This document shows, piece by piece, positions 858-63,642 of a stretch of DNA of 64,000 nucleotides. The notes below the pieces were generated by a model. The model saw nothing but the letters and a program-made list of their open reading frames with translations, was not told the DNA's origin and ran no database searches. The position numbers were made by a program, and so were the translations under genes. The number at the start of each line of letters is the position of its first letter. Position 1 is the first letter of the stretch. Where the stretch lies: positions 8,960,080-9,024,079 of the forward strand of contig NC_089319.1 of NCBI RefSeq assembly GCF_036669915.1. Reading direction: 5' to 3'. Source of the stretch: Pocillopora verrucosa. Its lineage: Eukaryota; Cnidaria; Anthozoa; Scleractinia; Pocilloporidae.

Positions 858-3800
858 CTTCGGCACCTTAGCACAAAGTATATCACTGTCAAACGAGTAG
901 CGAACAGAATAGCCTTTTAAAAAACCAGCGGTATCTATGAATTTATCAAAAATATTAGAGAGAATATAAGACTTTAGAACAAGTGCGGCAATTATTCCGA
1001 CAACGAATATTTTCATGAAGTTTAGAGCGGAATTGTGAGAAATATATCATTCAAAGGATATATCTGTTTCGGATTGAAAAGTCTCAGATATGAATAGGTC
1101 CCATGATATGAATAGGTTCAAGCGAACTTTTGTGCCTTGTAATAAATTGCAGACGTATAACTATAGATTTTCTCTATTGAAGTAAATCATACTCGTAGTT
1201 TTCAGATAATTTTCAATCGGTCTTCAAATACCACATTTTCCCTACGCTTTTGCGCACTATAATACGTTTAACTCCAAGAAATGAGAGAGCTTTAAGAAAC
1301 GCATCGTACTTACACCAGTCATCAAAACACTGTTCAGCCATTGCTATTCAGAAGCAGGTTCTAGTCCACCATTTTAATGAAACACTCAATTTTGTCAACA
1401 GCGTTGTGAGGTCTTATAGCTAACTCAGTGAAAATATTTATCTTCTGGCGAAAACTTCACTTTTTGCCAGCGATCTCCTGGTTCAATGACTGTTTTAAAA
1501 AAGCCACTAACAAAGTTACACTGCTTCGCTTGTGGAATAAGTGGATCTCTGTGTTCAGGGGCAAAGGCTAATAACGCCTTTTCTTTCTTTTTTCCTCTTT
1601 TTTTGCTTTTTTGTTTATTTGCTTTTGCTAGTTTTTTTTTCTACTCCTTTATTACTGCTGTTTGCGTTGTTTGGAATAATAAAGGACAGGCAATAAGCCA
1701 GTAACGCACCATTGATTGGACTCCAAGATACGTAGGCATACCAGTCGTCTGTGTTATCATACTGTCCGAATTTTACGGAGACATTGGATGCAAGCTGTAT
1801 TTCAGGTACGGGTGAATTGTCATCAGCCCTGCTCGCACAGTCTAAAATAAAGGATAACCTTAAGCTACAAAAAAACAACTGTCTTAGTGGTGTATATTGA
1901 GGATCATGATACATTAAAGAGCGATGCGGATAGGAAAAATTTTTGTTCACCATTTAAGGCAAACGGCCGGGCTCCTGTGAGGGCGATGAAATGCCTGCCG
2001 AACAATCTTGTTCGAAAGTATTAAAATAAATCACCAACTCTAGCCAATCAGAGTTGACAAAAGAATCGGCAAAAAGGGTTAGCCAATAAAAAGTCAGTGG
2101 ACATTTTCTTACAAAAGAGTGACGTCACGGAATACGATTAGTGTCAGGTTTGCGTAAACGTTCCCTCGCCTCCGTTTTACCCTGGGGGAGGGGGGGGGTA
2201 CGGTTACACGTAAGCTACTCGTGGCCTGCTGGGAGCCTCCTGGCAACCTCTGGATTTTACCCGGTTTAAATAGCCTGCGACTAAGAAAAAACTCTTTCAT
2301 CCTGAGCCAAGTTAATCGAAATAAGACTTGCGCTGGATTTAATTCTCTAAAAGGCTCTTTCCAGAGATCTTTTTCGCCAAACAGAAAACAGTTTATTCTT
2401 GGGCTAAGGTTGAAGAAAACCAAGTGATACTTTTCCTGCCTTAGCGGAATTTTAAAATTTGGCATGGTGATATTTTCCAGAATTTTTATGACAAACTGTT
2501 CAAGTTTCCCGCTCCAAAACGATGCCCATGTTACAGCCGAAAACTTGTTAAACAAAATCAGATATACTTACCATAACTAAGAGATTGCCTCCGACGTCTT
2601 ACAAAGGCAGTGATAGCATGTCGATAGAGGTCTGAAAAGAGAGAAGAAACGGATTTTAATCCAAAAATTACATTTCCTTTGAATATACGTAAAACTTTTG
2701 CTTCTTTCACTGGAAAATTTAGACTGACTTTTTTAATGGCTCAGGAATAACAGTGAGTTATAACTGATTTCCAAAGACAGCAGATTTAACTGAATGCATA
2801 GTTTTCTTATCTGTTTCAATCCAGTCTCGAATACTTTCAATTTTAATCATCCACGTCAATTTGGTATATTATTCTCTTCATTACTCTTCGCTCTCTTCAG
2901 TGATAATCATCGTTCCCTTGTTGGCTTAGAACCAAAGATAGCTCAAAGATAGTTTTATTTCCGAGCGCTAAAAATAGTCCCATGTGAGAGGCAAAAACAT
3001 TGTCTTATTGTGATCTCTATTCAACTTTATAAGTATTATTTACCTCTCCTCCTTCTTAAACACTGATCGCAGGAGAGAGATGAGCTGGCCTGAAAAAATG
3101 CAAAACATAAAGGTAAAAACATGATCTCTGTTTAAAGGACTGTGCGTAGGTCAAAGCTTTAAAATTGTAATCAAGATGTTTGTGGCTCTCGACTTCAAAT
3201 TGGCAGACCAACAGTATTCTTCTGCCTCAACATCGAAAGCGCTTTGAGTACTTGGAGGAAGACGCTAATGAATTTGAAATATCGCATTCAATTTTTCTAT
3301 TTGCATTCACATCAATAAATTAGATCTTCATCCCCTGCATTTCATGGATTTACTCTAAAGTGTGTTTGTTTAGCTCCATCCTGATGGATGGAGAAAGCTT
3401 TAATACATTCAGAATTGATCGAAACTGAAAAATGAGACGATCTTGGAGTTTTGACGCAGGCTAATGTTATCATTTCGATAAAAAAAAAAGGAAAGCACTG
3501 ATCAGGGCTTTCAATTCAACAGTTGCAAATTAAGCAGAAAACGCAAAAATAGCCGTTGCAAATTGGCACAAATAAAAGCCTAGTATAGGGCCTGGGCCTC
3601 AAATTGCTTTCATTCCTTTCATGATCTTCAATGTTCCTCTAGTTTATGCTCATTTCGTTTCAAAAGGTGTGGTTCCATTCAAATAACAGCATTAAACATG
3701 ACTCTATACATATCTATTCTTATTGGGTGGATAATCTGTCGGTATCTTAGGTAACGAAAGGTTAGATCTCAACCACTTATTGAAGTGATAGGGTTAACCA

Positions 3801-6159
3801 CTACTTAGGGAGAGTGGAAAACATGTTTTGCTGGTGTGAATGGGGCCTAAATTTATTTCAGATCTATGACCTGTTGGAGCACTAATCTTTGTGGTTCGTT
3901 CATTCTATCGAAGAAGCAATTCCCATAACTTGTGGATAAACGAAAACAAGTTATACTTTTGTAATCAAAATTTACGAAGTAGACCTCATACTCATGGTTT
4001 TAACGCATATTAAAGAAATGACTGCTTTTGAATATGTTAACTTTTAATTGTATATAAAAGAATCGACTGATAAAGAAAATTATTGGATGTTGTCGACCAC
4101 AATTATTTACCTGTCACGTTCCACACGTTGTTAAAATTCTCTCTTCTTTGTTCTTAACGAGTGGTTATCATTATCATTCGTACTCGAGGCAGCCCGAGGT
4201 GAAAAAAAAATGTATTTTAATGAATAGTAGACAAAAGACTGAAAACACAATTCATTAACACGCAAAAGTAAATACAGATAGCAAGATAACAAACTCTTGT
4301 TGGCTCAACACATTTGTTTTCGAACCCCAGAGCGCGTGACCTTCACGAAGAATACACATGATCGAAACTTGTCTGTCCTGATCTACGACAAATTTTCCTT
4401 TGTGTGTGCCATGCCAGAACCTGCGAAAATTGGCTTGAACCGGAATCGTTTAAGTCTCTGCTCCAAACCTAATGTATTGTTGATAATTGCAATATATTGA
4501 TTTCGGTAGACTTTCTCGGTGTTTATCGCCTGGTAATGTTTTTATTTATGATATCGTAATTATTTTCTTTTTCTTTAAATTTCAACGTGAATTCTAATAA
4601 TAATCAAGAAAAGTGAAGTAAAGAAAGTTTTATAACACACTTCATAAATTCAGCCATTCCCAGCAATTTTCACAGGTGTAGGATGTTTTCCAAGCTAATG
4701 GCATGGAGGGAACAAAACAATGCCATGTAGGAGGAAATTTTATGTTCAAACGTTAATTTATTCTCTTTCGTTTTCTGTCTTTCCCGTGCAAACAAACAGT
4801 AAGATCTTAAAAATTCCGGTTTGCTTCCTTTAATGTAAATGATCACTAATTCTGGAAATCCTGTCCTGATTGTAAACAATCTACCCTAAGACCCCGACAC
4901 TGAACGCTATTTCAGTATTGCTAACTTCATGAAAATGGATTACGCGGCAAACTTCGTTTCGCAATTCCTTAGCCTTGCTGTATTTTCAAGTTTAGTAAAA
5001 TTTAACAATAGGCTCATAATTGTCTCGAGGGCAAACTAGAAACTAAACCTTCTATGATAAACATACTCTGCGGTAAACAAAAGTCGATGACAACTATAAA
5101 TGCACGAAAGAACACGAATAAAACATTGTCGCTAATTTGCAAACATTGTTGATGCAACAATTTCTGAGGTACTGAAGTTTTTGGGCCAACTCAAAAGAAA
5201 ACTCGAAGGAGCGGGAGACAGGATAAATTCATGTTCACATCTTGATTTCACGTCCAACAGGGTTAAGTTTGTTCGACTGCTAATTGAATATACCTCAGTG
5301 CTTCGCAAATCAGTATGACTTGAGCAAATTATATTCCCTGTTTGAGATAATATATTTTTTAAATTGAAGCAATCACTCAACGAAAATAGTGCTCCATGTG
5401 ACAAAGCGAAAAGAGAGGTATTTCAGAGTAAAATCATCTGGCCAAAGCACAAAAAGGGATTGAAAAACTCAATACGACGTGATCGTGCATTAAAGCATCA
5501 ATCATTTGATGCTACATTAACTTCATTGACCTATAATATGTATGATCAAGCAAACCATGTTAAATCTTTATTAACGAATTTGCATGGAAGATTATTAGCT
5601 CCATTTCTGTTTGCACTATCATATCTGGCAAACTAATTCAGAAATTGGTGAAATTGATGACATTTCTTTTTAACCGCACTTTGAGCTGAATAAAGCAAAG
5701 GCCTTCGGTACGAAATTTTCTTCGGTTGATCTCTGCAGTCGAATTCTTCGAGGCAATACTCCTGGATGTTTTGGTATCATTAACGGTAATTGTCGTCAAA
5801 TATCACATGCACAGAATTTACTTTGTTAATTTTTTTGTTTGTATACAAATATCAGAAATTCGCGGCAGCCACAACTCTGCCTTGAACGCTTCAAGTGAAT
5901 TTTGCGATTAAAACCTCTATACTTTCAAAACGCTACGTTCTCAGCCAACGGCCGATTTCACCATAACATGGAAATTTCGATGTAAATGGAAGAGAAAGAG
6001 ACAACTTACCCGAGCTCTCTTGGTCAAAGATTTCCGCTCGTCCCAGCCGCAGGCTCGTAGGCACCCTGCTATGTTGTGTTCATCTTGTTCTAAACATTCT
6101 GTCAACGTTCCAGTGATAATAAGTGCCCCTACTGCAGCTATGATGATTCTCGCATTCAT
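858..6159 (-). CDS. Receptor F: 5' part of FNIII-like receptor of the cluster (3' exons beyond left edge)
   Basis: Five exons can be read on the minus strand: 6159-6010 (ATG, signal peptide, 50 codons), 3089-3044, 2631-2572, 1841-1710 and 934-858. All have AG/GT borders and keep the phases seen in the other units. Exon 1 has a hydrophobic leader and then CLRAC (C33, C37). Exon 2 supplies CDQC and a run of arginines (C57, C60). Exon 3 holds a furin-like RRRR followed by QS (residues 77-80). Exon 4 has the FGQYDNTDDWYAYVSW core and exon 5 an LKGYSV...LC..VPK strand pair, both typical of the ectodomain. Exon 6 and everything after it (stalk, membrane helix, cytoplasmic end) should lie left of base 1, so I cannot say whether this member carries TIR or the acidic tail. 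No stop or broken junction was seen, so it may be functional. The molecular role (immune-type receptor) is inferred from the TIR-bearing relatives in the same array. Confidence 0.75.
5725..5965. repeat. Intron-1 block shared by F, H and G
   Basis: About 240 bp starting at TCGAATTCTTCGAGGCAATAC, just downstream of exon 1 of F. It is clearly alignable with 14130-14370 (H) and 21165-21400 (G). Shared words include GGTAATTGTCG, CAGAATTTACTTT and CACAACTCTGC. Whether it does anything beyond recording paralogy is unknown. Confidence 0.6.
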
Positions 6160-8940: not shown

Positions 8941-9109
8941 ACCTTGACATCTAGGGCTCTCCCCGTGTGGAACAGAGAACTTTCTACATAAGACAGCAGC
9001 TACTATAATCATGCACACGACACCTGCCGTCGACCAACGGAAATAAGCACATACCTCATGGTTTTGTTATAACCTGGATAAATACGAATTATGTATAGAT
9101 AGATGTCAA

Positions 9110-9245
9110 TAATTTTGTCATGAGTAGGAAACAAAGTAAAAAATCTGAGTCCCTAGAAAAGAAGCGGGTCCTAGACCGGAATCCGCTCTCCGATGCTCCA
9201 CCACTGAGCCTAAGAGAAACTCTGTTGTGAGTTAGGCCATCACGG
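9110..9245 (-). mobile_element. tRNA-derived SINE relic upstream of the H membrane exon
   Basis: On the minus strand: GGCTCAGTGGTGGAGCATCGG (A-box), a B-box-like CGGTCTAGGACC, and then GGGACTCAGATTTTTTACTTTG. The family matches the relics in E and G, and it sits in the same intron (just 5' of the TM exon). Confidence 0.5.
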
Positions 9246-11901
9246 GGTACATACCTGAGTTGTGACCAGCATCCTGATGGGATCGGCGTTAGCTTTGTTC
9301 TCAATATCCAGAATATTTACTTTCCAACATGTATTTATAAACATTGCAAGGGAAACTTCATTGGACACATTGGAGGGCTGGAAATAAATTTTTGGAGAAG
9401 CTATCAGTTAAGGTAAAGAACACACTCAATCGTATCTGTCAAACAGTGTGCACAGAACACATTCCAAAACTGTCAAGATTTGAACAAATCTTCGTAGCTT
9501 CTCTGCATTTTAATTCAAAGTTGTGTAGTGTACGACTCCTAAATTTGCTTAATCTAGAGTTAATCCAGTTTCAGAGCTTTATTCTTTCTTTACAGATAGA
9601 CAAACTGCATTATGTTTTCATGATATAGGTAACTGCTATCACGGTCAGTTAGCTATTAGAGGACTTAAGACCCTAACTAAAAGATCTAGTAATCAGTTGG
9701 AGATTCATGTTGAATTTGTTTTGAAGAATTTTAAGACTTTACCGATAAGGGAAGATAACCAAAACCCTTGCTAAACCGTCATGGTTTAGATTCAGATCAA
9801 GAAGACCAACGGATATAAAGTCGATTTTGCTATACCACTCTGAGTGGCGCAGGGCGACGAGAAGGACACGAGATATCTAGTCGCCCTCTCATTAGGTCTT
9901 TCTACAGGGGTATCATTCACAACACCCTTAGCCTTGAACTATTTAAAGTAGAAGTGTCTGTTTGAAAAAGTAACTCTTGCTGTGAATGAGATCAAAATTC
10001 TAAATCAGAAATGAATTCCACATCTCTGGGATTTACCATAGTCCAAAAGGGGTAGCCAAATTATAGAGCTTAATTTTTGTACGCTGCTTGTTATGAATAT
10101 TTCATAATATAATGATATTGTTGCTAACAATCGATGTAAAGGAATACGATAAAAATGATGAAAAAAATACTACCGCGACTTAAGAATAAGCTCCTCTATT
10201 GTTTTGCTCTCATGCAAACTAAATGACTCAAAAAAATTTCGAAACACCTCTGAATATTTATTTGATGGCAACCATTTTAAAGAGATCCTTCACAGTAGAT
10301 GTCGATGCAACTTTGTTCCATCCAAATTCCCCAAAGGGAAACTCACGATTAGATACGTACAAGAAGGTAAGGAGATTCACCAGCTCTTCCAAGATTTATA
10401 CAAGGTAACTCAATAGACTATCAATATTTGAATTGCACTTATTCAAAGCGTCGAGGCTAGTTTTTTTTTTCCTCAATTGCCCAATTTATTTTAACATGTT
10501 AATGATTAAGCTCAACACATTTAATATTTAATGTAGATGGCAGTTTCATCCTTTCGACAATACAACTATAGGTTATGGAAGTTATGTCTCTGCGATAGGT
10601 AACCTAAAATGGAAACTACTGAGCTCTAAAATTTTCAGCATAATCAGAAATTTTAACCAAGAATTCCAAGTTGGCTAGACAGTGTTTTCCTTAACTGATG
10701 GTATTAGTCTGGAAAGATCGCGTTGAAAGACTGATTGTATTGCAAGAAATTGGATCACTTTTGGCTAGGATACATGATACCTTAGTCAATGAATGAGTAG
10801 TTAGCTATCGCTGAAGGGAAATATCTTTTGTCCACTACTGGTTAAAAAACCTGGTCAACATTGCAAAATTGCCTTCTGCGAAATAAACTATCTCTGTGTT
10901 TTATACGTGTTTTGAACAATAAACACTGACAACGGCAATAATTAAGAAAGCTAGTAGGCGTACGCCATTGAGAAAACAGAGAAAAGAAATGTAACAGGTT
11001 TATGGCAAATCAGTTGAGTTGAAGAAAATTACAAGAATGTTGAAAAACTTTGTAAAACTACGCGCTAATATGCCTAATAATGGGTGATCAAAGTCAAATA
11101 ACCATGCCACTCTCAGCGATGCAATGTCACCCACACACTGCAAGCCGCCACTACATTGATTTCAAAGTCGAAATCTTCAATCTGTCGCAATAGAAATGTA
11201 GAGGTTGCTTCTGCTAACAGAAAAAAAATACGAATTAAATTTTTCAATTAATTTGATTACTTATATGTACAAAGGATTGTTTTATGATGTCATGAGGCCA
11301 CGACAAGTTCAAATATTTAAGCTACACCTTGCAATGAAATTTTAAAAAAACATTCTTTGAAAATTTTGTGCTGCACGATTTGTGTGTAATTTCACAGTCA
11401 CTTGAACAACTACATTTAAATTTACAACTGTAATAACATTAATTCTCCATCTTATAAAAGTCTATTTCACAACTTCAACCGATGGGTCGCTCCTTCTAGT
11501 ACTCCTGAACGAAGCCTGTCGACAACTTCTTCAAAGAAGAAACATGGATGAATGTTATAAGTGGATGTAGGTCTGTCTTGCACACATTCAGAAGAGTAAT
11601 GCCTTTGAATAACGTGCATCTTTCTTTCAGAAGAAATAGAAACTCGTTGAAGAATGTCTTCACAATTCGGGCACGGTGGATTCATAATTTCAAGTTCTTC
11701 CTAGATCTCGATTTGTCGATGCCATGAAAAAAACAACGAAGACCGTAGTTTCGTGCGGCTAAAACGCAGTTTCTTTGTTTGAAAGTGCGGCCACAGCCTC
11801 GTTCGGATATAACGCACTGTCATTGGTTGAAAAAAGCGGCCGCGTGCTTTGTTGGAGTTAGAGCACAGGACTTAGCTAAAGCTGTCACGCCATCTGCCAA
11901 A

Positions 11902-12543
11902 TTGAAGGGCTAACGCTCGAAACGTCAGCCTTTTTAACTCTTTACGGTGGCCAATTTACGTCATTAAGTCAGTTGATAACACTAAATTACCCTGTTATAT
12001 TCTCCCACCGAAGCTATCGGATGAACTAATAAGCGCAGAGAACGAGTGATTTTTTTGGTGCATCGCGAGGAGTAATTAGCAAGGAGCACTTTCCATGGTA
12101 TGATGTTTTTATTTCATACATATTGAGATTTTTTCTCTTTGACCGACACATTTAAAGGTTGGAAGCTATTTTTTGCCTCCACCTTATAGTACCATCGTTC
12201 ATGTCTCTGATTGGTCGAACGTTGTATTTTTACAGCCCGACTTCGTTCGGTATGAACGAAATAAAACTATTCTCTTCGTAGCATAGAGTTACAACGTGAA
12301 ATCTTGATCCTTTCAAAGCTAGAGGGTTGTTGTGTACATTCTCTTTTTATAAGAATGTCTTATTTTAGGGGCTGAGGCTAAACGTTCTCATCTTACTTTA
12401 TGCGATTTGAGCCTAAAAACGTTCTTAAACTTGTGTGGTATAGTATTTCAAGAGGTAATTTAGTGTCAACAACTGAGTCGAAAACGTAAATTAACCACCG
12501 TAAAGAGTTTAAAGGCTGCCTTTTTTAGCGTTAGCCCTTCGTC
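11902..12543. mobile_element. Foldback-type element with ~60-bp inverted arms
   Basis: The left arm (11902-11963), starting GAAGGGCTAACGCTCGAAAC, and the right arm (12483-12543) are inverted copies, both including CTCTTTACGGTGG. The ~520-bp interior has no open frame of note. The arm motif GGGCTAACGCTCGAAACGTC recalls the hammerhead-like repeat carried by some Penelope-like elements, but the core is incomplete here. Confidence 0.6.
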
Positions 12544-13251
12544 AGAGCGATTGTAGTATTTCAATAAATCGATCAAGTTCGACTGCAAACTCAGTTGATC
12601 TTCAGTGTATCGCGTAATAAGAATACAACATTCATTTGTTAATATAAAAAAACTCCCAAAGTATTTGGGTTCATTGTTCTGTTAGACCACATTTATTTAT
12701 ACTTGTCACAAAAATGTGACTTTCAGCCTTGGTATGTTCCGGCTTAGTATGTTCGCAAAATTTTGGTTAATCTCAGCCTGAACGTTCTTATGAAAAAGGT
12801 TCTTGTATTAAAAAAGAAGGAGTGAAAAGCCATAATTGAGAGCATGTAGATTCCAGTGGCACATTTTGCAATATTTGAACAACTTGACTCAACATATTAC
12901 AGCGCCTCGAATATGTATGCCCAATAATTAATTTATAATTATAAATTTGCTGTGTTTGGGAACTGACAGCAGGCTGAGGACCAAAGCGAGCCCTCATTGG
13001 AATGCTCATTTCCACTGAGTTATGAAGATTATTTAGGGAATTATGCTATATGCTTTTTGGCAACCTAAGATCCCCAGACATATACCAACTTAAAATCCAA
13101 CTCTACGACCTTTTTGGAATTTTCTGAAATACTTAAACAGAACTAAACAGCTTTTAAACCAGTTAAAGATATAGATAAAAGTTTCATGAAATTTCCATGG
13201 AGCGCTTTAAACTGGTTTAGAAATACCTCTTACTATAGCTTAATCCGAGAG

Positions 13252-13300
13252 CCGCACTGTAAGTTACGGACCGAGTTTTTTTCCGTAATTTACAACGCGG
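13252..13300. repeat. Short imperfect hairpin
   Basis: CCGCACTGTAAGTTACGGA pairs with TCCGTAATTTACAACGCGG (15 of 19 positions) around a CCGAGTTTTTT loop. It is possibly the end of a small repeat. There is no gene nearby. Confidence 0.5.
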
Positions 13301-14469
13301 CCCGAGAAAAACGAGGCTAGGATAGTTAGGATAGAAAATAGTTATTATATTTCAATTCAAATAGAAGGGAAAAATATTTCAATTCAAGCGGAACGGCCGT
13401 GATGATTTACGCCCGTCAAATCTTAAGAACGAGAGCATTTTATCGGCTTCATCATAAATAATCATAAAGCTTTCCCGTAAAGCTATTTGCAAACATTTGT
13501 ATTCTCATCAGCTTCAAGCTGGATAGTTTATTGATATTTTAGGAAGTTAAAACGCAGAATTAATTCTTGGACTGAAAGGGTTAACCACAAGTGAACCAGA
13601 GCGAGGTCTTGTCTTAATCTCCAGTAGCTCGTGTTAACTTAGCCATCAAAAGCCCTTTTTGGTAGGTTGAGGAAATAACCTCGACGACTCAAATAACGAA
13701 AGCACGTTCGCTACGGTTTCAAATTAGTGGCAAAAACATCGTCTTGCTACAAAAAAGTATTTGTTACTGACTTTCTCAGGTATAGATCTAGAATGACGTA
13801 ATCAGTAAAAGCATATCATGCGTGAGAGACGTGTTACAACTTGCCTCGCTGTATATTTGACAAAGATTCAAAGTTTAGTTCTGATTAATGACTCATTGGA
13901 AAGTAATCATTGTTCCTTCGTTTGTTGTGCTTTGTCTAGATGATCTAATTCTGAAAAACCTCAACTTGTTGTGTTTTTGTTTGTTTTTCTCTTTGTCACT
14001 TGTTCTGCAATTTTTTTTGTGATTACTTTGTCAGAAAAACAAATTTCCAGACATAAATCAAAATTGAATCTATCCATATAAACGTATGAAATAAGATGTA
14101 TTCAAATGACAATCAAAGTACGCGATAAAATACGGTCGACTTCCGCAATTGAATATTTCATAGCGAAAATTTTGGGTATTTTGGTATAAGCAATGGTAAT
14201 GGGCCCAGAATTTACTTTATTAAATTCCTATTTAAACTCGTTGTTTATGTTCAAATATAAGAAATTTGAGGCGACTACAACTCTGCCTCGAACACTTGGA
14301 TTTTCGCGATCAAACTTAGTTACTTTCAAAATGCAATGTTCTCAGCGAATGGCTGAGATGCATCCACAACATAAAAAGTTCGATGTAAAAATAACAAAAA
14401 GTGATAACCAACCTAACCTGCCTGGTTTTTTGTTCGTCCAAGCCACAAGCTCAAAGGAACCCTACTGCC

Positions 14470-16340
14470 TTGTAAAGTAATGGGTTCGTGCGAAGATTTT
14501 AGTCACTGTCAAAACACTCGTTACAATATCAGGGTACGTTCATCAAGCACGTCTTGAATAGTAAAGTTGTTGTTAAGTTTGGCAGAAGTCTAATTTTATA
14601 CCTTGATGCAAATTTTACCGCCCCAAGCGATTCTTTTAGTCTCAATTCCCTAACCCCTTAATTCTTTTAATTCTTGCATCTTGTTTCACACCCGACTTTT
14701 TTTTTCACTCCACCCTCAACAACTATCGTCCCACGGGATACTGGTGAGAGGAATGTTTTTCTAAGGAAACTTCAAGACAGGGTGAAAATTCAATAAAACG
14801 TGAACATCTCTCTGTTGTTTGCCAGGGAGACGAAACCCATTCTCAACTTATTCTGGACGATACCAAACTCAGCTGACTTTCAGGGCAGAGAGCACAGTGT
14901 GGAGAATGTTGCCAGAATTCGTGACAATAACAATCCCGGAGAGATTAATAAGATAACAGATGCAAATGCAACACAACTAGCAATAAACTACTCGTAAATC
15001 ATTCTTATTTTATCGCTTGCTTTTGAGAACGAGACAAACTCGTCGCTTTTTGTTACTGGTATTTCTGCCGATATGTCCTGATGCCAACAAAATTGAAAAA
15101 AATAGTAATTCAACGACTACTCTTCTAAAGCAAAAACTTCAACCCAGCCTTACTGTTTTAATGAGGAATAACTGTCTTGTATCCTTTCACTTCTTTATTT
15201 ACGCAATTAATTAAATCATTAATCAATTCATTCCTTCAATCATTTATTAATCAAATGCTCTTTTCGTTCCAAGTTTGAGATCCCTATGTTGGAATAACTA
15301 CGTGCACCCTTAAAGACACAAATGGTGAAGGTTTTCTCGACCCCGCAAACAAAGGTTGTCCAATGTTCAGGTGACGGGCATCGATTGGATGCTTGATTAA
15401 ATGCACAGATAATGTTAACAAAAGCTTATCTGTTAGTAGTTGAAAGCCGAAGCTTACATATAGGTTTCTTTTACCGAAATAATGAGGGTAACATATACAT
15501 TTCCAGCTGTTGTTGTTTATGCTGCAAACTTTTTAAACTTTTATTTATGAAACGACACTTCACTCTCCATACCCATACTTCGTTACCACTGCTCTTTGAG
15601 ATTTTCAGGAAACCAAGATGTTTCGGCTTTTCCAGAAAGGTGACTTTGCCAAGACAAGGTACAGTCGATAAAATTTCGCATCTCATACCTTGGGAGTGCT
15701 ACATTAAAAGCTTTTATAATCTCATCGCTTTATCATGGCAATACTTAGTCCTATTCAGATAATGGCTGCAGATATATAATTGTAATTGCTTTATGAACAC
15801 TACAACGACTTTCCCTATTAAATTCGACGAAAAAACATGGAATAATCAGGCAGATTTTCAGTAAATCTTCGAAAGAGACCGAATGCAATAACAGCGTTAA
15901 AACGCAATATCCTCTTGCCCTCGTCCTCAAAAGGAAAATAGTCTGCAGATGTCCTTACAGACTTGTTCTTATCGTTAATTAAAGGATGAAAAGAATATCA
16001 TGTCCTTCCGATTGCTATAGAGGCCTGTTGAACCGAGTTATTTCCCTGGAGTCTATCTAATTGAGAAACATCAAGATTTCTCTTTCCTTATGCAGTCTTT
16101 CAAGTCCACTTTTAAAGTTGATGACATTTGTCTCTAAAAACCCTTGACTGACATTCCGGTAAAAGAGCTAAATTACAGAACACATGTAATATCCGCATTT
16201 GCATTTTTTCTCAGCTTGATTAAGCACATACTGGCAATCGTGAATTACGATAATTCTGTCGCTGGTAATTAAAAAGAAAACCTTTCCCAGCCTTAAAGTC
16301 TCTGAAACGAATGCGAATCTTTACACAAATAATGAGCTCC
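14470..16340. other. Intergenic region between H relic and G
   Basis: Alignable with 21.65-23.50 kb (between G and E), including GAACGAGACAAACTCGTCGC (15027) and the CCTTTCCCAGCCT(T/C)AAAGTCTCT block next to the tail exon. No coding evidence; open frames are chance. Confidence 0.5.
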
Positions 16341-40849: not shown

Positions 40850-41173
40850 TTATGTCATACATTCTTCATCAAGATCATTAGAGGTGTCCAGAAACTTAAC
40901 GTGTTTGCTTTTCCAGAAAGGTTTTTCCAAGGGATTGGCATAGTCTAGGAAACTTCGTTTCTTCAATCCCCGAGAGAGCATCTCACAATCCGTTTTATCA
41001 ATTCTCATCACGACCAGGCTGTCGTCTCTTTCTTTAAGAAGGTGATACTTAGCAAGGTCCAATTCATGGATGCAGTAATTACTGAGCATCAAGTTTTTGG
41101 AAAACACTGCAATTACTTTATAACTGTTGTAAACACTCTCCTCCATGTTAACTTCAAAAGGCTTCCCAGGCAT
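40850..41173 (-). pseudogene. Truncated TIR remnant of receptor B
   Basis: The frame opens at MPGKPF in the BB loop, so box 1 and the first helix are gone. The rest matches the TIR of C at most positions (FWKSK box 3 kept) and ends at a premature TAA where C continues for another ~45 residues. The open frame is not joined in phase to the transmembrane piece upstream. Confidence 0.85.
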
Positions 41174-51057: not shown

Positions 51058-51638
51058 TTAAACAGAGGTTCCCTCTGTCTCTGAAATAACAGATACTTCG
51101 GTAGCGGTACTGATTGTTCTTTCGTAAGTAGTTCTTTTCTGCTGATTTTCTTCGATAAAATCGTTTGGAAAACAGTTATTATTGTCTTTGTCTTCGTTCC
51201 TGCTTTCTTCAACAAGATCCTTAGAGGTGTCCAGGAATTTAATGAGTTTACTTTTCCAAAAAGGTTTTTCCAAGGGATTGGCATAGTCTATGAAACTTCG
51301 TTTCTTCAATCCCCGAGGGAGCATCTCACAATCCGTTTTATCAATTCTCATCACGACCAGGCTGTCGTCTCTTTCTTTAAGAAGGCGATGCTTGGCAAGG
51401 TCTAATTCGTGGATGCAGTAATTACTGCCAACCAAGTTTTCGGAAAACACTGCAATTACTTTGTAACTGTTGTAAACACTCTCCGCCATGTTAACTTCAA
51501 AAGGTTTCCCAGGCATAAAGTCTCTGTAATGAACACAACATTTCAAATGACTTTCTTCTTCCAAGAATGGAAGTAATTCTCCAGTCACCCAGCTCTTATC
51601 TTCGCTGCTGTAAATGATAAACGCGTGGTATTTGAATT
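51058..51638 (-). other. TIR-coding last exon of receptor C
   Basis: Single exon, entered in phase 1 after AG at 51640-51639, 193 codons with stop. It shows box 1 YHAFIIYSSED, box 2 VHYRDFMPGKPF, the IHELDLA helix and box 3 FWKSK. The tail has RTISTATEVSVISE and ends in TSV. It reads as a complete TLR/IL-1R-class TIR. Confidence 0.9.
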
Positions 51639-54600
51639 CTGTAAGAGATAAAAATTTAAACGTTGTTAATCTTCCTAAATTTCCTTGCAAATTAGTTATG
51701 AGAACTTGTGTTATATTACGACAATACCCTTTGTCTGATACGTACAAAGGTGCGAGGAGTAGTCACAATCAAAACAATTTCTACCCACCCCTGATGTGGA
51801 CGTCCAACTTCACATCTCCCTTATCTTGTGATGCAAAACTCAACAAACTATTGTTATTCAAAACCTACCTGGCGGCAGTTTACTGCTCTTCGGCCTGCGG
51901 CTTAAAATATTCTTTAAAAGGCAGGCAGCGAACGTTAATCCTCCGAGGACACCGAGAGACACTGCTACAGTGGTAATAAGAGTGGTGGTGTTATCTAGGA
52001 AACAAAAAATTACGTACAGTTTACACCAATCACAAAGAAGTTACACAAGGGTCAATCATGGTAAGACCTAAATATAAACTTGATCATTAGAAATCTATGT
52101 TGCAGTCTCAGTTCACAATTCATGTAAGGAGAACAAGGTATAAGATACCTGTGGATATAATAAGGTATGATCTCCTCTGGCAAAGGAACACGAGCGCATG
52201 CCATTATCAAGAGATCAAAGATGGGTGCGCTGGTTACCCTTTGGCTAAAAGGTTTTGGCTTTTCAGGCTACTCTCATCGTGCCTCACCCGACCTAGCCAC
52301 AATTGTTGAACCATATAAGATATTATTTCATTCTATAAAGCGTTTTGCATTTGAGGATCGTAGGCCAAAATAAAATAACGCAACAGCCAATCATAACAAA
52401 GATTGCCATCACGTAGATCCAATGAGAAATCAAAGAGTTTACACGTAAGCGGCCTCAAGGGCCAGAAAAACCTTGAGATGAGGTTGAAAAGGGTTTTAGA
52501 TATGCATCTGATTGGTGAAAAGGGAACCGTGAGTTCGGCATACAAATCACAGAAGTTAGTATAAATTTAGATCCCTTGACTCTCAATTGAAATTTCTCGT
52601 TATAAGATTTAGGACGGCACTAGTTAATCATCCAGTGCAGACAGTGATGGAAACCATTAGCAATTTGTTGAATGTCACTGCACTGAACTTACCTGATTTT
52701 CCCTTGTCAGTAATAGGAGGAGTCTGTGTGTTGGTAGCAGGAGAAGTCTCTGTCTCGGTAGCAGGAGTGGTCTGTGCTGTAGGAGTAGTCTGTGCCACAG
52801 AAGTAACTGTTGAAGACACTACAAGAAAAGAATAAAAAACGGATGAGAAGGTCGAGCGAAATGGTATATTACCAGTCTTAAACTTTATTATGGCCAGAAG
52901 TTCAACTTAAAAAGATAAAAATGAATTTTTCTATTTGCCATTGGTGTATATAATAATAATATAATAATAATAATAAAACTTTATTTAAGTGTCAGTGTAT
53001 TTTAGCACTGCTGTGCTAATTGGGGACACTGTAAATAAGGAAACAAATATCGTAAATGAACAGAAACTCGTTAAAAAAAAAACCTAATGTACCCTAATGT
53101 GATGGTTAAGTTCTTAAATTCTCCACTCTTGCTCTCAAACAAAGAGATGAAAACTTATCCTTTAACTAAAACATTGTGCTTCTGTATCTGCTCTTAGCAT
53201 AACCTCAGTTTCATACACCATCTCATAGAGCGCTTTGCATTCAAGGATCGTAAACCGAAAAAAAAATGCTTAAACACAAGGGACAGGATAAATGCAAATT
53301 TTTTTATTTGGCATCTGATTGGAAAGGGGAAGGCATTCAATCGAAAATCTCTCTTTTTAAAATAAATAGCTGAGTCATTTAGTCGCCAGTTGAAAAACAA
53401 TTCAAACATCGACCATCTGTGATTACCACTCACCTACAACGGGTCCATACGGGTCTAAAGTTACGGTATCATCTGAAGAGAAAGGTTGGCCAATAACCTA
53501 AATAGCGAGGAAATCAAACATACGGAATGCCGCAGTTAGCAAATGCCTCTTAAGACTTCCTCTCTTCTATTTAGGTTGCATTCGTCTTTTTTTTTTTTTT
53601 TTTTTTTACGGGGGAAATTTGAGACAGATCACTGTAATGAGATTTTACTGAGCCCGGTTGCTTATGGTTTGGGGAAATTTCCAGGCCTAATGCCGAAATG
53701 CAGATTTAGAATGCTGAAAAGTGATATCTTAGTAACTGGGCTCACTACCCACCATCTCAAAAAAAAAAAAACAGAGGGTAAGGAGAGATCTCAGAAACCA
53801 AGGCGGCCAGATTAACTGAGATTAAGTGATTGAAATACTCATACGGGGAAATTTTCTAGACCTTCGATGGGCAATGAAGCGTGATCGCAAAAACTGCTCT
53901 ATCCCGATTCCAATGTCGCAACGAAGGCAAACTTTGAAATCAAAATACCACTTGCTTAAGTTAATTGATTCCTGTGCCAAAGTTGAGTTATTACTAACAT
54001 TATCATGAAAACTGACTTATAATTAGTTTTCTGTGAGGTAAACGGTAAAATAGAGCGCCAGTAGTGTCTTTTATTTCATACTATGTCTTACAATTATCGA
54101 CAAACAATATAAAATTATTAATTTTGAAACTTATTTGAATTAAAAAGTAACTTAAGTTACGAAATCTCTGAATTACATCACAACAATGAGGAGCCTAATT
54201 TGTGGCGCTCTCACTTAAAATTCCAGTGTCATTATCTATAGGGTACTCACATCTAAGTAAATTTTGTTTGGATATTGATAGCCATACGAAGTAATGTTAA
54301 CTGTCGCGACGCTTTGATTCTAGAGAAAAATTAACAGAGGATACATGTGTTATTTAACTAACAAATAAATTTACAAGTAAATAAATAAATAATGTTGGGA
54401 AACGTTCCAAAATTCTGAGGCCTACATTTTTGTTTCACAAGTTATATTTATTTGCTAATTTCATTTTCTCCAAAACCAATTTGGAGCTGATATATTTTGA
54501 TATACTTTTGCGAACCAAAAATTGGAAATAGAGACTAAACAGGCTTTTTTAAAAAATTAACGAAAGCTATGCCTTTTAAATCCTTACTTTTGGATACTTT

Positions 54601-57600
54601 AAACAATCCACGTCTCCAGTAGAGGTGTCTATTGCGAAAAAGCGGATGAGTATCGAAGTCCAGCTTTCATTTGCATCTTGATGTGAATAGAAAAACTTAT
54701 GTTAAAACAAACAGATTTGAGCTCAAACGTAAAAACTTCACGGGCAAAAAGTTCAATGATTAACCCTCTGATAAAGGAACCCCTAACAAACAACTTCAAA
54801 GTAATAATTGAAAGTTACATAATGCAACATCATACTGACAAAATGGCTGATATAACACTGGGTAAGTTTGTACAGTGAAATGTGAAAACATGAAATCATT
54901 TCACCGAAAGTATAAAATATCAGCAGACTTTCATTTATGCTGATCAAGTAATATCCATAAAATTCTCAAAAATAAAAACCCATAGAATCTAATGTTGTAC
55001 AAAAATCTCTGTTTTGTAACTCTATGGATGGCGACCAGGGATAGTGAGAAAACATTAGAGTTGTTTAACTGAGCACTTACCATTCATAGGAGTCCAAGAT
55101 AAATTTGCATACCAATTAGTGGTGTTTTCATATTGACCAAAGGTCACATTAATGTTACTTGGTTTCCAGTCCTGGGTCTGGTTTGGTGAAGAACCTGGAC
55201 AATCTAAAATACATTTATTAAGTAATGGAAATTAATAACAATTTGATTAATAATTTACTGATGACTACTAATGTTTCTAGCCCCTGATATCTTGATTTCT
55301 GGTCTTGAAACCTCAATGCCCATGAGATGATTACATATTAAACAAGTTTTGCAAGTTTAAATCGTCACATTGCTGTGGCCTCAGTCAGATCCAGAAGAAG
55401 GATCTGGGAAATTTTGACTCCCAGCTTCCCCCACCCCACCCCCTAATCAGACCTGTACATTTTTTTTTCTTCTCATCTGACACCAAAATACTTGCAGCTA
55501 TGTTAGTCAATATGAAATGTTTTTCAACTTGCTAAGGCAATAGCCCACAAAAAAAAAATATTAGTGTTTTCCGAATCATATTTTGGAGCCTCCCCCTCCT
55601 CCCTTCATCAAATATTTTCTGGATCTTCCCCTTGCACCTTCAGGAGCATGCAGCAAAAGAAATCCAGGTCAGAATTTGGCTCTCTGTACACACTTCCAAC
55701 AAGTCCACTGGCATGGCATTATGTCAAATCATCTTCTTGTAACACATATTTATTGTGTTTCCATCCATTGGTGTTTTAACCCTTAGGTAAGCTATTCCTT
55801 AAGAAAAAAACTTGAAAGTACACATTTGATATTACTATAATGCTTACTAGGATTAGGTGGGAGAGCTTTTCTGAAGCGTTTTTGAAAGATCCCTGGCCTG
55901 ACTGGGGCTTGTCCATGTGCAGCTGTTAAAGAGCAGGACAAAAAACAAAGAGAATGAATTACAATAATCAACAGTTTAGTGAGCAATGATGACTACTTCT
56001 TTGTCATTGAGTGATATGATAGATGAGATCAAATGAAGCTAAAAACAAATTTTTAAGTTTTTACATTGATTACATTTCTTTCAACTTTAATTAAGGAGCA
56101 TAAACACACTTAGATGCAACAATAAACAAAGAAGGAACAGGAATGATTGAGGACTGGAATTATGTAAATAGATTACAAGTGAAAAATTTGAAAAAAATTA
56201 ACAACACACGTAACATGTGACAAGCTTGTTTGAGTAAGTCTTTGCATAACACTTTTGTCTCCAGTCCTCCTCCCACTTACTTCTCAGACTTCTAATTCCC
56301 TTAGGAACCCCCAACCCTTCCTCCAGAAAACCCCGTAAGGCAATAAAATGTACTCCAATGCTTGAACAGTACAATTCAAACCTTAATTTTGATAAACAAA
56401 TGATCAGTCAGTCACATTATCAGAGCACTGAATTACCTCTCCTCACTCCCAGACACTGGTGATAGCAGCTTGAGAAAAGTTTTGAGACCTAGCAATCGGA
56501 AACAAAAGAGCACTTGGTAACTTTCCATAAAATAAACAATGTCCAATCCATACACACTACCTTAGCTTTGTTGCCTTGTTTTCGAAATAATTCAGAAAGG
56601 ACATTGTTTACTAACACAGAGTCCATAGCTGGCGAAGGAAGTGGCGGATAATACTGTACTTCGAAAATGAAGATAATAATAAATCAATTACAGCACTTCC
56701 GTAGTGACAGCCGTTAGTGTAAGTGCTATTACATCGTAATAAGTGAAAGAAAGTGGTAAGAAAAGCGGGAAAAATCAAAGATAAAAACAACGGCGCTGCA
56801 GTTTATTTTTGGAACTCCCTGACCAGGCACAATCTTTTGTTTGTAAGCGTTTAAACATCGCGAATGAACAAATTAATGGGCAGTTTCGGATGGTTAGTTG
56901 AGTCAGGATGATCCAAACACGTATTGAACCTTGTGCACGATAGAGTCCAAAAGAAAAATTCAAATGACACAACAAAGAAATCAAATAATCAGGTTCACTA
57001 ACTACATGAATCGCTTTTGGTTCGAGTAATGCAAATTTAGTTGCTTGCGTGATATTCCACGAATGAAGTAAACCGTGACTGTGTCACGATATGCAGTACA
57101 TGCCGTACGATCACGTACGCTCATTTTCGATGCAAAAATTGTGATTTAGAGCAAATGTAACGTCCAAAACATTTTCTGGCGATAATAATTTCTCTAATTA
57201 TCAGTAAATTTTTAATTAAACAGAACTGACATAAATGTCGTGAAATGCAAACACATTCAATTTTGCTCCTGATCCTCCATGAAAGGACACAACAGCCTTT
57301 CATTTAGCACTTTTCAGGATTTCATACTCTACAGACGAGTTTTCTTAGACTTGTTGCAGATTCACCTCATTTTACTAAATTGTTTCACGAACTAAAGGTC
57401 GAAAATTATTTTTAAAGGTGCATTGTTTTAACATGTCAAAAATGTACTTCCTGTCTTCCTGTCTTTGCCGAAAAAAAAAAGTTAAGCTTGACTTAATCCC
57501 ATCAGATCACGTCCAAGACACAAACGGTTAGAAGTGATAAGAATACACAACGATTTCGCGCAGTTTATTCTAATTTATTTGATTAAGGTTGACATCTGGA

Positions 57601-58784
57601 ATTAAGGTTCTCGAATGTATACAACCTCTTTTGTCTTCGTTGCACTCTATTTGTAATAACTAGAGTCGAGATCACGAGAATGCATTTTTTTCATGCTTTC
57701 ACGCCTCCTAGATACAAAAATGTTTTAAAAATAACAACAGAGCGATTTCATCAATGGATACTTGTTTCTGGATTTTTTTTGATTAGTATTTGTCAATCTC
57801 CCTTTCAAAAAAAGTTTTTTTGCTAGGCTTCCGATGCAAATCCACTGAAAGCACTGCTGTCAGATCCGTTCTACAAATCAAGGCTTTACAAATTGTTTAA
57901 ACATTGAGCTGTGCACGTGTTTGCAGTAAAGGATAAAAACCTGAACGAATGATCGAAGAACAAACACGTTTTCAGTTTCTAAAGACCGTTTTCATTCTTA
58001 TCGCCATCCAGCTCTCCTTCAGACCTGTCCAGTTTTCGTGCTAACCGGTACCTTCCATATGCAAATTTATATCGTTAATATAGTAGCCATCACGTACATG
58101 AATCGATTAAAACTGTATGACTTAAAATATTTCTTTCGTCGATGCTCTTTCCGACACCATTTTTGTTCGATATAATGGAAAATTGAGGTTTTAGTTTGGA
58201 TGTGAAAACTTTGAAGTCAAACATAAAGCTAAGTGAAATTGATGTGGTCGTGCGTCTTCCATCCCTGTTTGATAAGCGTTATTGATTGTCGACCTAAACA
58301 GCAAGCGCGCAAAATAAAGTGATAACATTTTTTTGCAATTGTAGACAGTTTTGTTGTTGGTCTGTACTATGCGTCGAGGTAGAAGTGAAAAGCACACTCA
58401 TAGGACCGCTTCCGCAATTTTTGCTATCAGGAAGACAATTTGATTCACATCTGAAGAGGAATCCCAGAGTCATACTTCGAAACAATTTAACATCCACATT
58501 TGCTCCTGGTTTAAACTAAAAGCAGTTCAACCTATAAAATGAGCGCTTCAAATGAGCGCCTTAAATTTAAGATTCTTTTAGACGCATGGTATAGTTTAGG
58601 TTTATTGATCACAGCGAAAGTGACATACCTTTCTTGTCAAGCGTTTCAGTTGTTGAGGATTACATTTTCTCACGCACTCGGTTGAAACACTTTGTTGCGA
58701 TCTCTCGACGGAAACAGCGATAATAAGTGTGAAAGTCCAAAAAGCAATCATTTTGCTTAGTTTTCTGGAGTTCCTTGCAGCCAT
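51058..58784 (-). CDS. Receptor C: complete 486-aa FNIII-like / stalk / TM / TIR receptor
   Basis: Ten exons on the minus strand: 58784-58629, 56488-56437, 55922-55848, 55203-55081, 54676-54588, 54319-54251, 53497-53434, 52818-52693, 51994-51869 and 51638-51058. The total is 1,461 nt, open throughout. Signal peptide 1-~30; CVRKC (C37, C41) and CYHQC (C60, C64); a basic stretch KRFRK at 84-88, a weaker cleavage site than in the other units; FNIII-like ectodomain ~95-209 (FGQYENTTNWYANLSW, NQS, YGYQYP); Thr/Pro-rich stalk 210-251 with repeated TTPA-like units; membrane helix ~255-275; TIR ~297-425 with YHAFIIYSSED (box 1), HYRDFMPG (BB loop) and FWKSK (box 3). It is more diverged from A, E, G and F than they are from each other. 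Its TIR exon and 3' flank are duplicated in B. Confidence 0.85.
52950..53060 (-). mobile_element. 3' end of a retroelement with (ATT)n tail, intron 7 of C
   Basis: Read on the minus strand, a body with CCCCAATTAGCAC and CACTTAAATAAAG runs into a (TTAT)/(ATT)n tail. This is a polyadenylation-like signal plus a simple tail, as left by non-LTR elements. No coding part is left. Confidence 0.4.
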
Positions 58785-60732: not shown

Positions 60733-61330
60733 TTAGACCGGATTATCCTCGTTTAGAGTAACAATGGATAACTCTGTGGTAGTACTTATCGAACTGTCCA
60801 ATCTGGAATACCTACTCCTCATCTGTCCATCACTTCCCTCTGAGGTAACTTCGGGAGCAAAGACATTACTATTAGGGTCCGACTCCACTTCTACCTCTGC
60901 GTGACTTGGCTCCTTAGGGACATCCAAAAACTTGAGCAGTTTCCTTTTCCAAAACTGTCTCTCCGTTAGATCAGCATAGTCGATACAGCTTCTTCCGCGA
61001 AGCTCTCGAGGGAGGTCGTCGAACTTTGATTTGTCGATCCTTATGACAATCAGGCAGTTGTCCCGCTTGTCTAAGAGGCGATACCTGGCAAGTTCAAGCT
61101 CGTAATTACAATATTTACTCTGCAAAAAGTTGCTCGAATAAACAGCAATGATCTTGTGGCTGCAGGAAACGCTTTCTGCCATACTCTCTGTAAAAGGAAT
61201 TCCAGGAGTAAAGTCTTTGTAGTGGATGCATACTCTCAAACCGTGCTCTTCTTCCAAGAATTTTAGAAGTTTCTTTTCACCCAGCCTTCATCTTCTTTGT
61301 TGTAAATTATGAAAACGTGGTATTTGAAAT
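60733..61330 (-). other. TIR-coding last exon of receptor D (frameshifted)
   Basis: The acceptor and first codons give DFKYHVFIIYNKED, then the frame is lost near 61275 by one missing base and resumes as EEEHGLR. The second frame is open to the stop and carries IHYKDFTPG, YELELA and FWKRK. The C-terminal SRYSRLDSSIS resembles the tail of A. Confidence 0.85.
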
Positions 61331-63642
61331 CTGAAGCCAAATATAAATATGAAAGGTCGTCATTTATAGAGTTGTAAATATCATACACACACTTTGCAGG
61401 CTATGCAGTATATCTTCAGCGAACGAATACAAGCTAATGGCGACGACGAAACAGGTGAGCTAACTTGTTTTGATATCACTTTTTTTTTATCATTCCGCCC
61501 CATAAAAGCAAAAAATTACCAAACTTGAACCTCGTTTTCAAGCTCTCGCAAATTACACTTGAAATTTAAGAGTCACTAAACTTTTAAGTACATTTCTTAG
61601 AAAATAGTTCGCTCTAAGTTTACTGCCGACAAAATCAGGTATATAGTTTTAGAATTTAGAATACATAATTTTCTATTTTGGGGGAGGGGGGGGGGGGTGT
61701 GGGGCAGAAGAAAAATGAAAGTAAAATATGAACTATTCGTGTTTCAAGAAAAAGTAGTGCCCTCAATGCGTGCAGAGAAGCGCTGGGAGTTGTCATTTTG
61801 AGAATCACGTGAGCTGCTCCCGTATCAAAAGTTTCTTTATGATCTATCGTAATATGTTCCAAAATGCTTTCTGCAAGTGCATAAAACACTTCTGAGAACT
61901 TTTGTCATTAGTGGAAAAAAGTACCTAAAGATGACAATATAACTTAACATAAACAAAGGAATCATTATAAAAACAAAATAATCAATGGAAAATTTTCTTC
62001 TCCAAGTTCAAACCTGATGGTAAAGTGATACTTGGTTTACGACGATGAAAATACATCAGCAAGCAAGCACCAAAAACTATTCCAACAAGGCTTCCAACGG
62101 CGATTGATCCATAAAGTAAGGCCGTATTCTTACCTGGAATTAGAAAGGAATATCTCTTACCTATTTTTCCCATTTCATGAAATTGTTATTTCAAGCAAGC
62201 AACAGGCGAGGAAAAGAATATAAAGAGAGCTCAAACAATATGGGTATTGCCTGTTAAGGTCACTAAACAACAAATGTTTAGGAGTAACCAAAAAACGCTC
62301 TAGGCTGGGAAAGGATGGAAATGATTATCATAATCGACGATTGCCATCATCAAATTATAACGTTTAACCCTTTAACTCCCAAGATCTCATTAGCACTTCT
62401 CCTTACTGTCTGCCATATAGTTCTTGTGATGTTGGTTTGGAGAATTTGGTATTGGATCGACTAATAATCCCTTAATTAAAATTTGTCTTTATTCCCATTA
62501 CTCGTCTGCTTGATATTGTATTGATATTGTAAGGAGAAATTCTGTCTTGGTCACTCATAAGAGTTTAAGGGTTAAAGAGTTAACATGACTGAGCAATATT
62601 TAGAAGATCGATGCACAACTGTCGTGACGTATATATTTGGAAACGACCAACTACTTACGCTCTGATGTTGGTTTTGATGTTATGAGGACGGCACCAGGAG
62701 TGTACACGGCTGAAAAAGAGAAAATGCACCTCAATATCATACGGGTTTAATACATGCATTCTCAAATAAAAAATTATGTAATTTATTCGCATAGAAAAGG
62801 TGTTTGAAAGTGCTCCTTCGAAGTAACAAGATACCGTGGCAACCAGAGGTTTTATCACAATTTTTAACATATCGCATCCTTTTCAAATTGCTCCAACGAT
62901 TTTGTCAGTAACTGACAAATAATGGACAAGACACCGCTATAGAGCACTTAACCTAGATGCTTAGCGCGTCAGAAAAAAAGGAAACTCGTTGCTTTTCTCT
63001 TGTCGCTAACTGTCATGATAAAGATGGAATATACCAGGAACTCTATGTAACGGGAAACAAAGTCATTCTTTAATGGATTAAATCTAAGCCAGCTACATCG
63101 TCAAGCTTATGCAGTATATAATGTTGAGGTGCAGTAGTTATTTATTTATGAATCAGTTATTAAATTGGGCAGCTCTAGGAAGATTCACAACATGCCAACA
63201 TTTTTCAGTGATTTTATTGCACAAGAGTCTCTTAAGTGTACTTGTTTTATGCTCTTCATAGAGTACTTACGAGGTCCATATTGTTTAGTCGGCGTAAAAA
63301 GCTCTAAAACCAGATATGGCTCTGTCCCACTCCGTATGTTTGGAAGAGCAATCACCTGCAAGAATAAAGTCATTATATTCATCTGAAATGAGACATTACT
63401 TCGTGCGAATCTGAAATGAACTTTGTCAAATTGTTTATACAAAGAATCTGGATGGAATGAAATAAAATAGTAAAATCTTTCCCAAAAAATTAAGTTGGTT
63501 TATGGGATTTTACAGTTAAAACCCCCGAATCTAGGGAGAAAATTTAATTATCATCAGCTAAAAAATATCTTTCCGTTTATCTTACAATTAGATTGATTTT
63601 CCTTTCCTTGTGTGAGGACGTGATGTTCACACTTGTTCGGTT
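60733..63642 (-). CDS. Receptor D: 3' part of TIR receptor, with 1-nt frameshift in the TIR exon
   Basis: Five exons are visible on the minus strand: 63642-63586 (exon 6 type, NRTSVNITS), 63355-63271 (exon 7 type), 62709-62659 (short stalk, Thr/Pro), 62133-62014 (membrane helix, then HRRK) and 61330-60733 (TIR plus tail). The signal peptide and front of the ectodomain lie beyond base 64000. The TIR reads YHVFIIYNKED in box 1, but one base is missing near 61274-61279, so the literal frame stops at once; the downstream frame then carries HYKDFTPG and FWKRK and the conserved Ser-rich end. The exon is 598 nt where the phase pattern needs 599. Either the locus is a recently broken gene or this A-rich run was mis-assembled. 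A polyadenylation signal candidate follows at 60527-60522. Confidence 0.7.
62365..62584. mobile_element. MITE-like element in receptor D
   Basis: Starts TTTAACCCTTTAACTCCCAAGA and ends AGTTTAAGGGTTAAAGAGTTAA, so the ends are inverted copies of each other. It is ~220 bp with no coding content and lies in the intron between the stalk and membrane exons of D. It is of the TTAACCCTTTAA type often seen in coral introns. Confidence 0.65.

Follow-up and report, generated by a model that had tools for sequence, protein, structure and literature searches.

A tandem array of single-pass receptor genes, with and without TIR domains, in the coral Pocillopora verrucosa

A 64,000-nucleotide stretch of the Pocillopora verrucosa genome (NC_089319.1, positions 8,960,080 to 9,024,079; hereafter the window) holds receptor genes of immune type, destined for the cell surface, in a tandem family that is real and well structured. 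Eight units, numbered U1–U8 from right to left, lie on the minus strand between positions 858 (U8 exon 5) and 63642 (the first U1 exon placed inside the window), and all eight units of the array noticed in a preliminary description of this DNA could be placed. We refer to the contig that holds the window as C8 (window C8:8960080-9024079), within an assembly of 353 Mb in 52 contigs. At a probability of roughly 0.6, we interpret the array as a locus of single-pass receptors in which signalling receptors stand beside decoy-like copies, with transmembrane (TM) and TIR parts that would be related to those of immunoglobulin (Ig)–TIR receptors and an ectodomain that would have been swapped. The family, in which some copies have lost the TIR tail, resembles a recognition locus that changes rapidly while following an established plan.

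In its full plan a unit would begin with a signal peptide and a four-Cys segment, after which a furin-type site usually comes; the remainder would consist of a single FNIII-like domain, a stalk rich in Thr, Ser and Pro, the TM helix and a TIR domain. Both the stalk and the single TM segment of the preliminary description were found. The intron phase series 0-0-1-1-1-0-0-1-1-1 is complete in U2, U5, U6 and U8 (the last closed across the window edge) and in U4, which has one extra phase-1 exon. The common exon plan with constant phases that had been proposed for all units holds for these, whereas U1 and U3 match the series in pieces only and U7 is too far decayed for it to be judged. Introns of U2, U4, U5 and U6 are all GT-AG, the sole exception being a GC donor at U5 intron 8. 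Within the window, two units of the eight (U2 and U4) are both complete and TIR-bearing, and U8, if counted, makes a third; U5 and U6 have no TIR, U1 and U3 are broken, and a relic is left of U7. Four complete models had been proposed, and those of 284, 299 and 486 amino acids (aa) were recovered exactly, whereas the 526-aa model gave way to U4 readings of 535 aa with a 60-nt exon at 32833-32774 or 515 aa without it. Half of the four (U5, 284 aa; U6, 299 aa) lack a TIR and are not the FNIII–TIR receptors they had been taken for. Long duplicated blocks of ∼80–93% identity, beyond chance, are shared between units. The TIR-bearing units, U1 and U7 are laid out as follows.

60733..63642, minus strand: U1, 3′ part; exon 6 at 63642-63586, exon 7 at 63355-63271
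62709-62659, 62133-62014 and 61330-60733, minus strand: U1 stalk, TM and TIR exons
51058..58784, minus strand: U2, complete gene; 10 exons, 486 aa, with FNIII-like ectodomain, stalk, TM and TIR
58629..58784, minus strand: U2 exon 1; encodes the signal peptide and the first of two Cys pairs (CX3C)
55848..56488, minus strand: U2 exons 2 and 3; encode the second Cys pair together with a basic segment that lacks an R-X-K/R-R motif
53434..55203, minus strand: U2 exons 4–7; FNIII-like domain
51869..52818, minus strand: U2 exons 8–9; Thr/Ser/Pro-rich stalk and TM
51058..51638, minus strand: U2 TIR exon; BB loop RDFMPG, box 3 FW
30407..39001, minus strand: U4, complete gene; TIR exon 31026-30407
35275..35337, minus strand: U4 exon 3; furin-type motif RRKR-S
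33048..33236, minus strand: U4 Thr-rich stalk exon
8980..14495, minus strand: U7, degraded unit; exon 1 relic near 14495-14403 and TM exon relic 9074-8980, both weak matches
858..6159, minus strand: U8 exons 1–5 (6159-6010, 3089-3044, 2631-2572, 1841-1710, 934-858)

The TIR exon of U1 has a frame break near 61280, and exon 4, which with exon 5 falls outside the window, has an apparent break provided that its acceptor is the one homologous to other units. Exons 6–10 of U8 lie just left of the window; with them the unit has a TIR and a closed frame of 457 or 458 aa. The frame is kept in 34 pairings of a stalk exon with a TM end, of which the one chosen has the best splice sites. The array itself continues beyond the window. 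A whole-genome TIR search gave at least 50 matches, at least seven of them on C8, and four further TIR exons lie to the left of the window on the same strand. Units U9, U10, U11 and U12 were outlined outside the window (loci L009-L012 included); no TIR was located for U11 in the neighbouring sequence, and a single ectodomain fragment was seen for U10. The full array would thus amount to about twelve units over ∼100 kb, several of them incomplete. Other TIR exon clusters among the matches listed lie at C1 14.29-14.90 Mb, C4 10.92-11.18 Mb and C13 4.57-4.74 Mb, and the C13 cluster holds, among those matches, five with identical score and E-value, ∼23–34 kb apart.

The N-terminal segment of U2, U4, U5, U6 and U8 contains two Cys pairs, CX3C followed by CX2C or CX3C, with 18 or 19 residues between them, and the pairs are divided between exons 1 and 2. 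An R-X-K/R-R motif follows in exon 3 of U4, U5, U6 and U8. By these motifs, the four-Cys N-terminus may be a pro-segment that is cut by furin.

The TIR domains of the array are of the TLR/IL-1R class and not SEFIR domains, in agreement with the preliminary description. The U2 domain matches Pfam TIR_2 (1.1e-15) and, in the Protein Data Bank (PDB), TLR6 (1.2e-21); the best PDB match of U4 is TLR2 (8.6e-17). MyD88 is weaker in both cases, and the Pfam and PDB searches of array TIRs returned TIR and no SEFIR. The PDB entry Toll-receptor-related 2, presumably a Hydra protein, matched the U2 domain at 4.2e-8, weaker than TLR1/2/6. The RDFxPG BB loop and FW box 3 by which the class had been recognized are both found in U2 (RDFMPG, FW), and U4 has RDFYPG; the signature is not uniform, as U1 has KDFTPG and box 3 is FW in U1, U2 and U3 and YW in U4. 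The BB-loop Pro is present in U1, U2, U4, U8 and U12. This residue is important to signalling of the MyD88 type, and Ala is its natural counterpart in TLR3; by analogy, array copies with Pro or Ala at this position may differ in their adaptors. We also note that the C-termini of U1 (60733 on), U2 (51058 on) and U4 (30407 on) are alike, with Y-x-R, S/T-rich residues and a final V, possibly a candidate adaptor or PDZ-type motif. The C-terminus of U8 is unlike this tail.

Where these TIR domains belong within the genome was examined in 24 loci of the at least 50 matches. Mean identities of array TIRs are 0.40–0.52 to the C1/C4 cluster TIRs versus 0.28–0.31 to TLRs; the maxima are 0.60 for U2 to the C1/C4 clusters and at most 0.37 to TLRs, and maxima for the class of other TIRs are inflated by one C1 row, L030, that it contains. 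In the phylogeny, the array and C1/C4 TIRs are split from TLRs and other TIRs with an ultrafast bootstrap (UFBoot) of 73 and a FastTree value of 0.88. Four single-exon TIR genes group with human TLR1/6 (UFBoot 85, FastTree 0.22), and one of these (L001) combines leucine-rich repeats (LRRs) with a TIR. The C1/C4 TIRs therefore appear to be the nearest neighbors of the array TIRs, without being proven sisters. Two C1 loci (L025 and L031) contain three open frames with Ig domains (Pfam 1e-9 to 1e-13), and a further C1 locus, L017, agrees with U2 in the phase of the pre-TIR acceptor and, to within two residues, in its position.

The two units without TIR and the sequences 3′ of their stops are as follows.

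23501..28978, minus strand: U5, 10 exons with a complete TIR-less reading of 284 aa that ends in a short tail; intron 8 has a GC donor
22840..23478, minus strand: relic TIR motifs 3′ of the U5 stop; RDFEAGK at 23478-23419, KVVAV from 23037, stops present; E 0.02 to 0.14
16354..21598, minus strand: U6, 299-aa complete reading without TIR; stop position identical to that of U5
15617..16324, minus strand: relic TIR motifs 3′ of the U6 stop; RDFKAGK, KVVVVF and PFWKS in TIR order; E 0.02 to 1.3

In both models the exon 7 donor was re-set to the frame-closing donor, which lies at the same motif in U5 and U6. Each relic match is weak alone, and we read them as relics because of the motif order and their presence in both units. 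The common stop suggests that the TIR was lost ahead of the U5/U6 split, and therefore that the divergence between the two units probably postdates this loss. Their coding sequences are under constraint. All nine exon indels between U5 and U6 are multiples of three, whereas of 46 indels in four noncoding alignments eight are (P 1.5e-7; these alignments were picked by the analyst, and gaps near ends were dropped from the noncoding count only). The ratio of nonsynonymous to synonymous substitution (dN/dS) is 0.43 for the FN exons (Fisher P 0.009, on rounded counts), 0.47 for the entire ectodomain and 1.37 for the TM and tail. U5 and U6 are thus likely to be constrained, fast-evolving, TIR-less receptors of a decoy-like kind. 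Two repeats were seen in these units: a tandem duplication of 341 bp, its copies 100% identical, in which part of U5 exon 1 is repeated (28255-28595 / 28594-28934), either very recent or an assembly artefact, and a tandem repeat of ∼119 bp in U6 intron 5 (17876-18182).

How the array reshuffles ectodomain and tail is exemplified by U3.

40719..49796, minus strand: U3, broken hybrid; exon 2 largely missing, TM and TIR exons merged into one
45232..47264, strand nominal: DNA-transposon-like insertion of ∼2 kb within U3; its inverted ends of 28 bp agree at 27 positions

U3 resembles U4 as far as 41702, its 5′ flank included (80–93% identity, the insertion excepted), and from 41679 on it resembles U2 (89%). 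The order U2, hybrid with a U4 5′ part and a U2 3′ part, U4 is the product expected of unequal crossing-over between U2 and U4, and U3 is of hybrid origin. A Pfam scan of eight open frames, three from the insertion and the others from elsewhere, gave no informative match.

The outer domain is encoded by exons 4–7, which comprise ∼110 residues, one domain's worth in each closed model, with W, S, W, P, C, PKN, I and a late P invariant in nine units. It is weakly FNIII-like. Three PDB profile searches each placed neogenin first (whole-chain E 0.0036, 0.0056 and 0.0054), and four of the five matches in the third were FN3-type chains, the fifth being PNGase F; we take the neogenin and contactin-type matches to be FN3 chains. 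The Pfam scan of outer domains covered eight units (U2, U4, U5, U6, U8, U9, U12 and the U1 piece, with U3 and U11 left out), and the nearest match was Fn3_Dep-1_3rd, at E 0.045 in the U1 piece. No LRR was found in the U2 protein or in the outer domains so scanned. A U5 exon 4 query against the genome gave eight matches, all inside the array; because it missed the known units U1 and U12, distant copies of the ectodomain elsewhere are possible. A nine-unit profile searched against 16 ten-kb loci beside other TIR exons, which may fall short of some ectodomains, gave two weak matches (E 0.66 and 1.1).

The preliminary description took this domain for an IL-17R-like FNIII fold, and two readings of the ectodomain compete with ours. 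The units could be IL-17-type cytokine receptors with an exchanged tail, an IL-17 receptor D1-type ectodomain having been fused to a TIR, which we consider quite improbable. The Trp-to-Cys spacing is 27–29 in five of ten units (U2, U3, U4, U5 and U6), close to the 28 of IL-17RA D1 and 29 of IL-17RB D1, whereas it is 25, 30, 31, 34 and 34 in the other five (a junction residue is absent from the U1 count). By eye, a Cys ahead of the domain and a Y...I/L-P end motif add to the resemblance, and cnidarian IL-17 ligands have been reported, as far as the available text of that report goes (PMC8353272). A first hhalign run against IL-17R D1 was equaled by only 3 of 200 shuffles, but with nine units 21 of 300 column shuffles were as good. 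In hmmsearch against verified sequences of IL-17RA and IL-17RB D1, 275 and 74 of 2000 shuffles equaled the nine-unit result, and 224 and 51 of 1000 had done so in an earlier run. In Smith-Waterman comparisons of six units, the IL-17R domains outscored a generic FN3 control in none, no IL17R_fnIII_D1 or fn3 match was obtained in the eight-unit Pfam scan, and no IL-17 receptor was among the 13, 12 and 5 matches of the PDB profile searches. Taken together, Pfam, PDB profiles, Smith-Waterman, hmmsearch and hhalign with shuffles do not support IL-17R kinship of the outer domain. A PF16556 profile found no match in the coral's own genome, where the control likewise matched nowhere. IL-17 receptors have two FNIII domains (D1 and D2) and the array units have one, with a TIR in place of the SEFIR.

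The other reading takes the ectodomain for an Ig domain that has decayed or diverged, and the units simply for IL-1R-like receptors as in C1; it is unlikely. It would account for the C1/C4 clusters holding the nearest TIRs and for the near-identical pre-TIR intron in one C1 locus, and the Hydra protein HyTRR was later argued to be Ig-like, according to a work cited in the available portion of PMC6321704. The eight outer domains scanned, however, gave no Ig Pfam match up to E 10 (HMMER filters drop most weak matches), whereas the C1 frames match at 1e-9 to 1e-13; no Ig chain was prominent in the PDB profile searches, and the Cys–Trp spacing is unlike that of Ig domains. We rate at about the same level the proposal that U5 and U6 are dying pseudogenes and that the locus is mostly debris round two or three working genes. 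The breakage of U1, U3 and U7, the TIR relics behind U5 and U6, the GC donor and partly duplicated first exon of U5 and the fast nucleotide divergence would all suit it. Against it stand the 284 and 299 open codons, the in-frame exon indels, the ectodomain dN/dS below 1 and the common stop, which suggests TIR loss before the two units separated. Less probable still is a variant in which, at a fast-changing recognition locus, one gene would yield a receptor as well as a four-Cys peptide that furin releases from its N-terminus, with unequal crossing-over continually generating BB-Pro signalling, BB-Ala altered-signalling and TIR-less decoy copies that have their outer domain in common.

In the interpretation we prefer, of signalling receptors and decoy-like copies on an Ig-TIR-related base, a new ectodomain was probably placed on a TM–TIR exon pair related to the Ig-TIR (IL-1R-like) receptors of this genome, and the locus would then have grown by tandem duplication and unequal crossing-over. 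U2, U4 and U8 would most likely bind a ligand outside the cell, pair, and use the TIR to recruit adaptors of the MyD88 type. U5 and U6, with an intact constrained ectodomain and TM, would most likely be decoys or dampening partners. Several observations weigh against this interpretation. The gene models and functions are predictions from sequence. For the ectodomain, U2 has no furin motif; the Pfam scan of the eight outer domains gave no match above cut-off, fn3 and IL17R_fnIII_D1 included; the neogenin match covers a chain with two FN3 copies and its per-domain E is 6.7 or worse; and the first two PDB profile searches bring in unrelated enzymes as well, namely esterases (8 and 7 chains), cellulose synthase and PNGase F. 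For the TIR part, the BB-loop Pro is replaced by Ala in U9, U10 and the U5/U6 relics, and the array TIRs form one clade only weakly (UFBoot 44 and FastTree 0.38 with U12, 62 and 0.74 without). The C1 Ig frames are linked to the TIR exons by position, as they precede the TIR on its own strand, so that their joining to the C1 TIR exons is putative; the L017 intron was compared at its acceptor, and the C4 loci showed no Ig motif. Finally, exon identity between U5 and U6 (0.75) is not above noncoding identity (0.67–0.81).

The array can be compared with several known systems. In the available text of Emery et al. 2021 (PMC8260672), TIR and TM without LRRs make up an accepted cnidarian 'TLR-like' class; U2 and U4 fall within this definition and U5 and U6, having no TIR, do not. 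That text gives no ectodomain for the class, whereas the array has the FNIII-like domain, a Cys/furin-type N-terminus and a stalk. With Toll-like receptors proper, U2 and U4 share the TIR class but not the LRR ectodomain. The cnidarian IL-1R-like Ig-TIR receptors, as far as the accessible accounts describe them (PMC1896004, PMC5094078, PMC10236652), are alike in holding the nearest TIRs of the genome, one similar pre-TIR intron and tandem expansion, and differ in that no Ig was detected in the array ectodomains tested. Tandem TIR clusters are known from corals: for OG0000106, tandem duplication is likewise a main source of copies, and its description, in the portion available, is without the array's ectodomain or TIR-less paralogues (PMC10236652). 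SEFIR and TIR are related domains, according to the accessible part of PMC6321704. The IL-17 receptors resemble the array in the Trp-to-Cys spacing of some units and a single TM; support from the D1 profile is absent, and the array has one FNIII-like domain and a TIR, not a SEFIR. A ctenophore FN3-TIR2 gene, reported in the available text of PMC11797021, combines FN3 with a TIR-type domain as the array does, but has Pfam-detected FN3 repeats and TIR2 only and belongs to another phylum; we liken the two by architecture. The combination of domains had been thought undescribed. That view needs correction in part, as TIR–TM proteins without LRRs and the ctenophore gene are on record; the array's own ectodomain joined to a TIR was not found for cnidarians in the open literature available.

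Animals of this sort depend on innate receptors. The attractive link to IL-17 receptors is corrected here as unsupported, and the more interesting facts are the TIR-less copies under constraint, the proximity of the array TIRs to those of Ig-TIR genes and the formation of a hybrid. New in this work are the four-Cys N-terminus, mostly with a furin-type site, the constraint on TIR-less copies and the hybrid made by unequal crossing-over. Cnidarian TIR–TM genes have been listed, in the literature accessible to us, without a defined outer part, and the locus supplies an ectodomain for one group of them. It also suggests how such an ectodomain could be grafted onto an Ig-TIR chassis, and U5 and U6 are natural decoy candidates whose constraint is directly testable.

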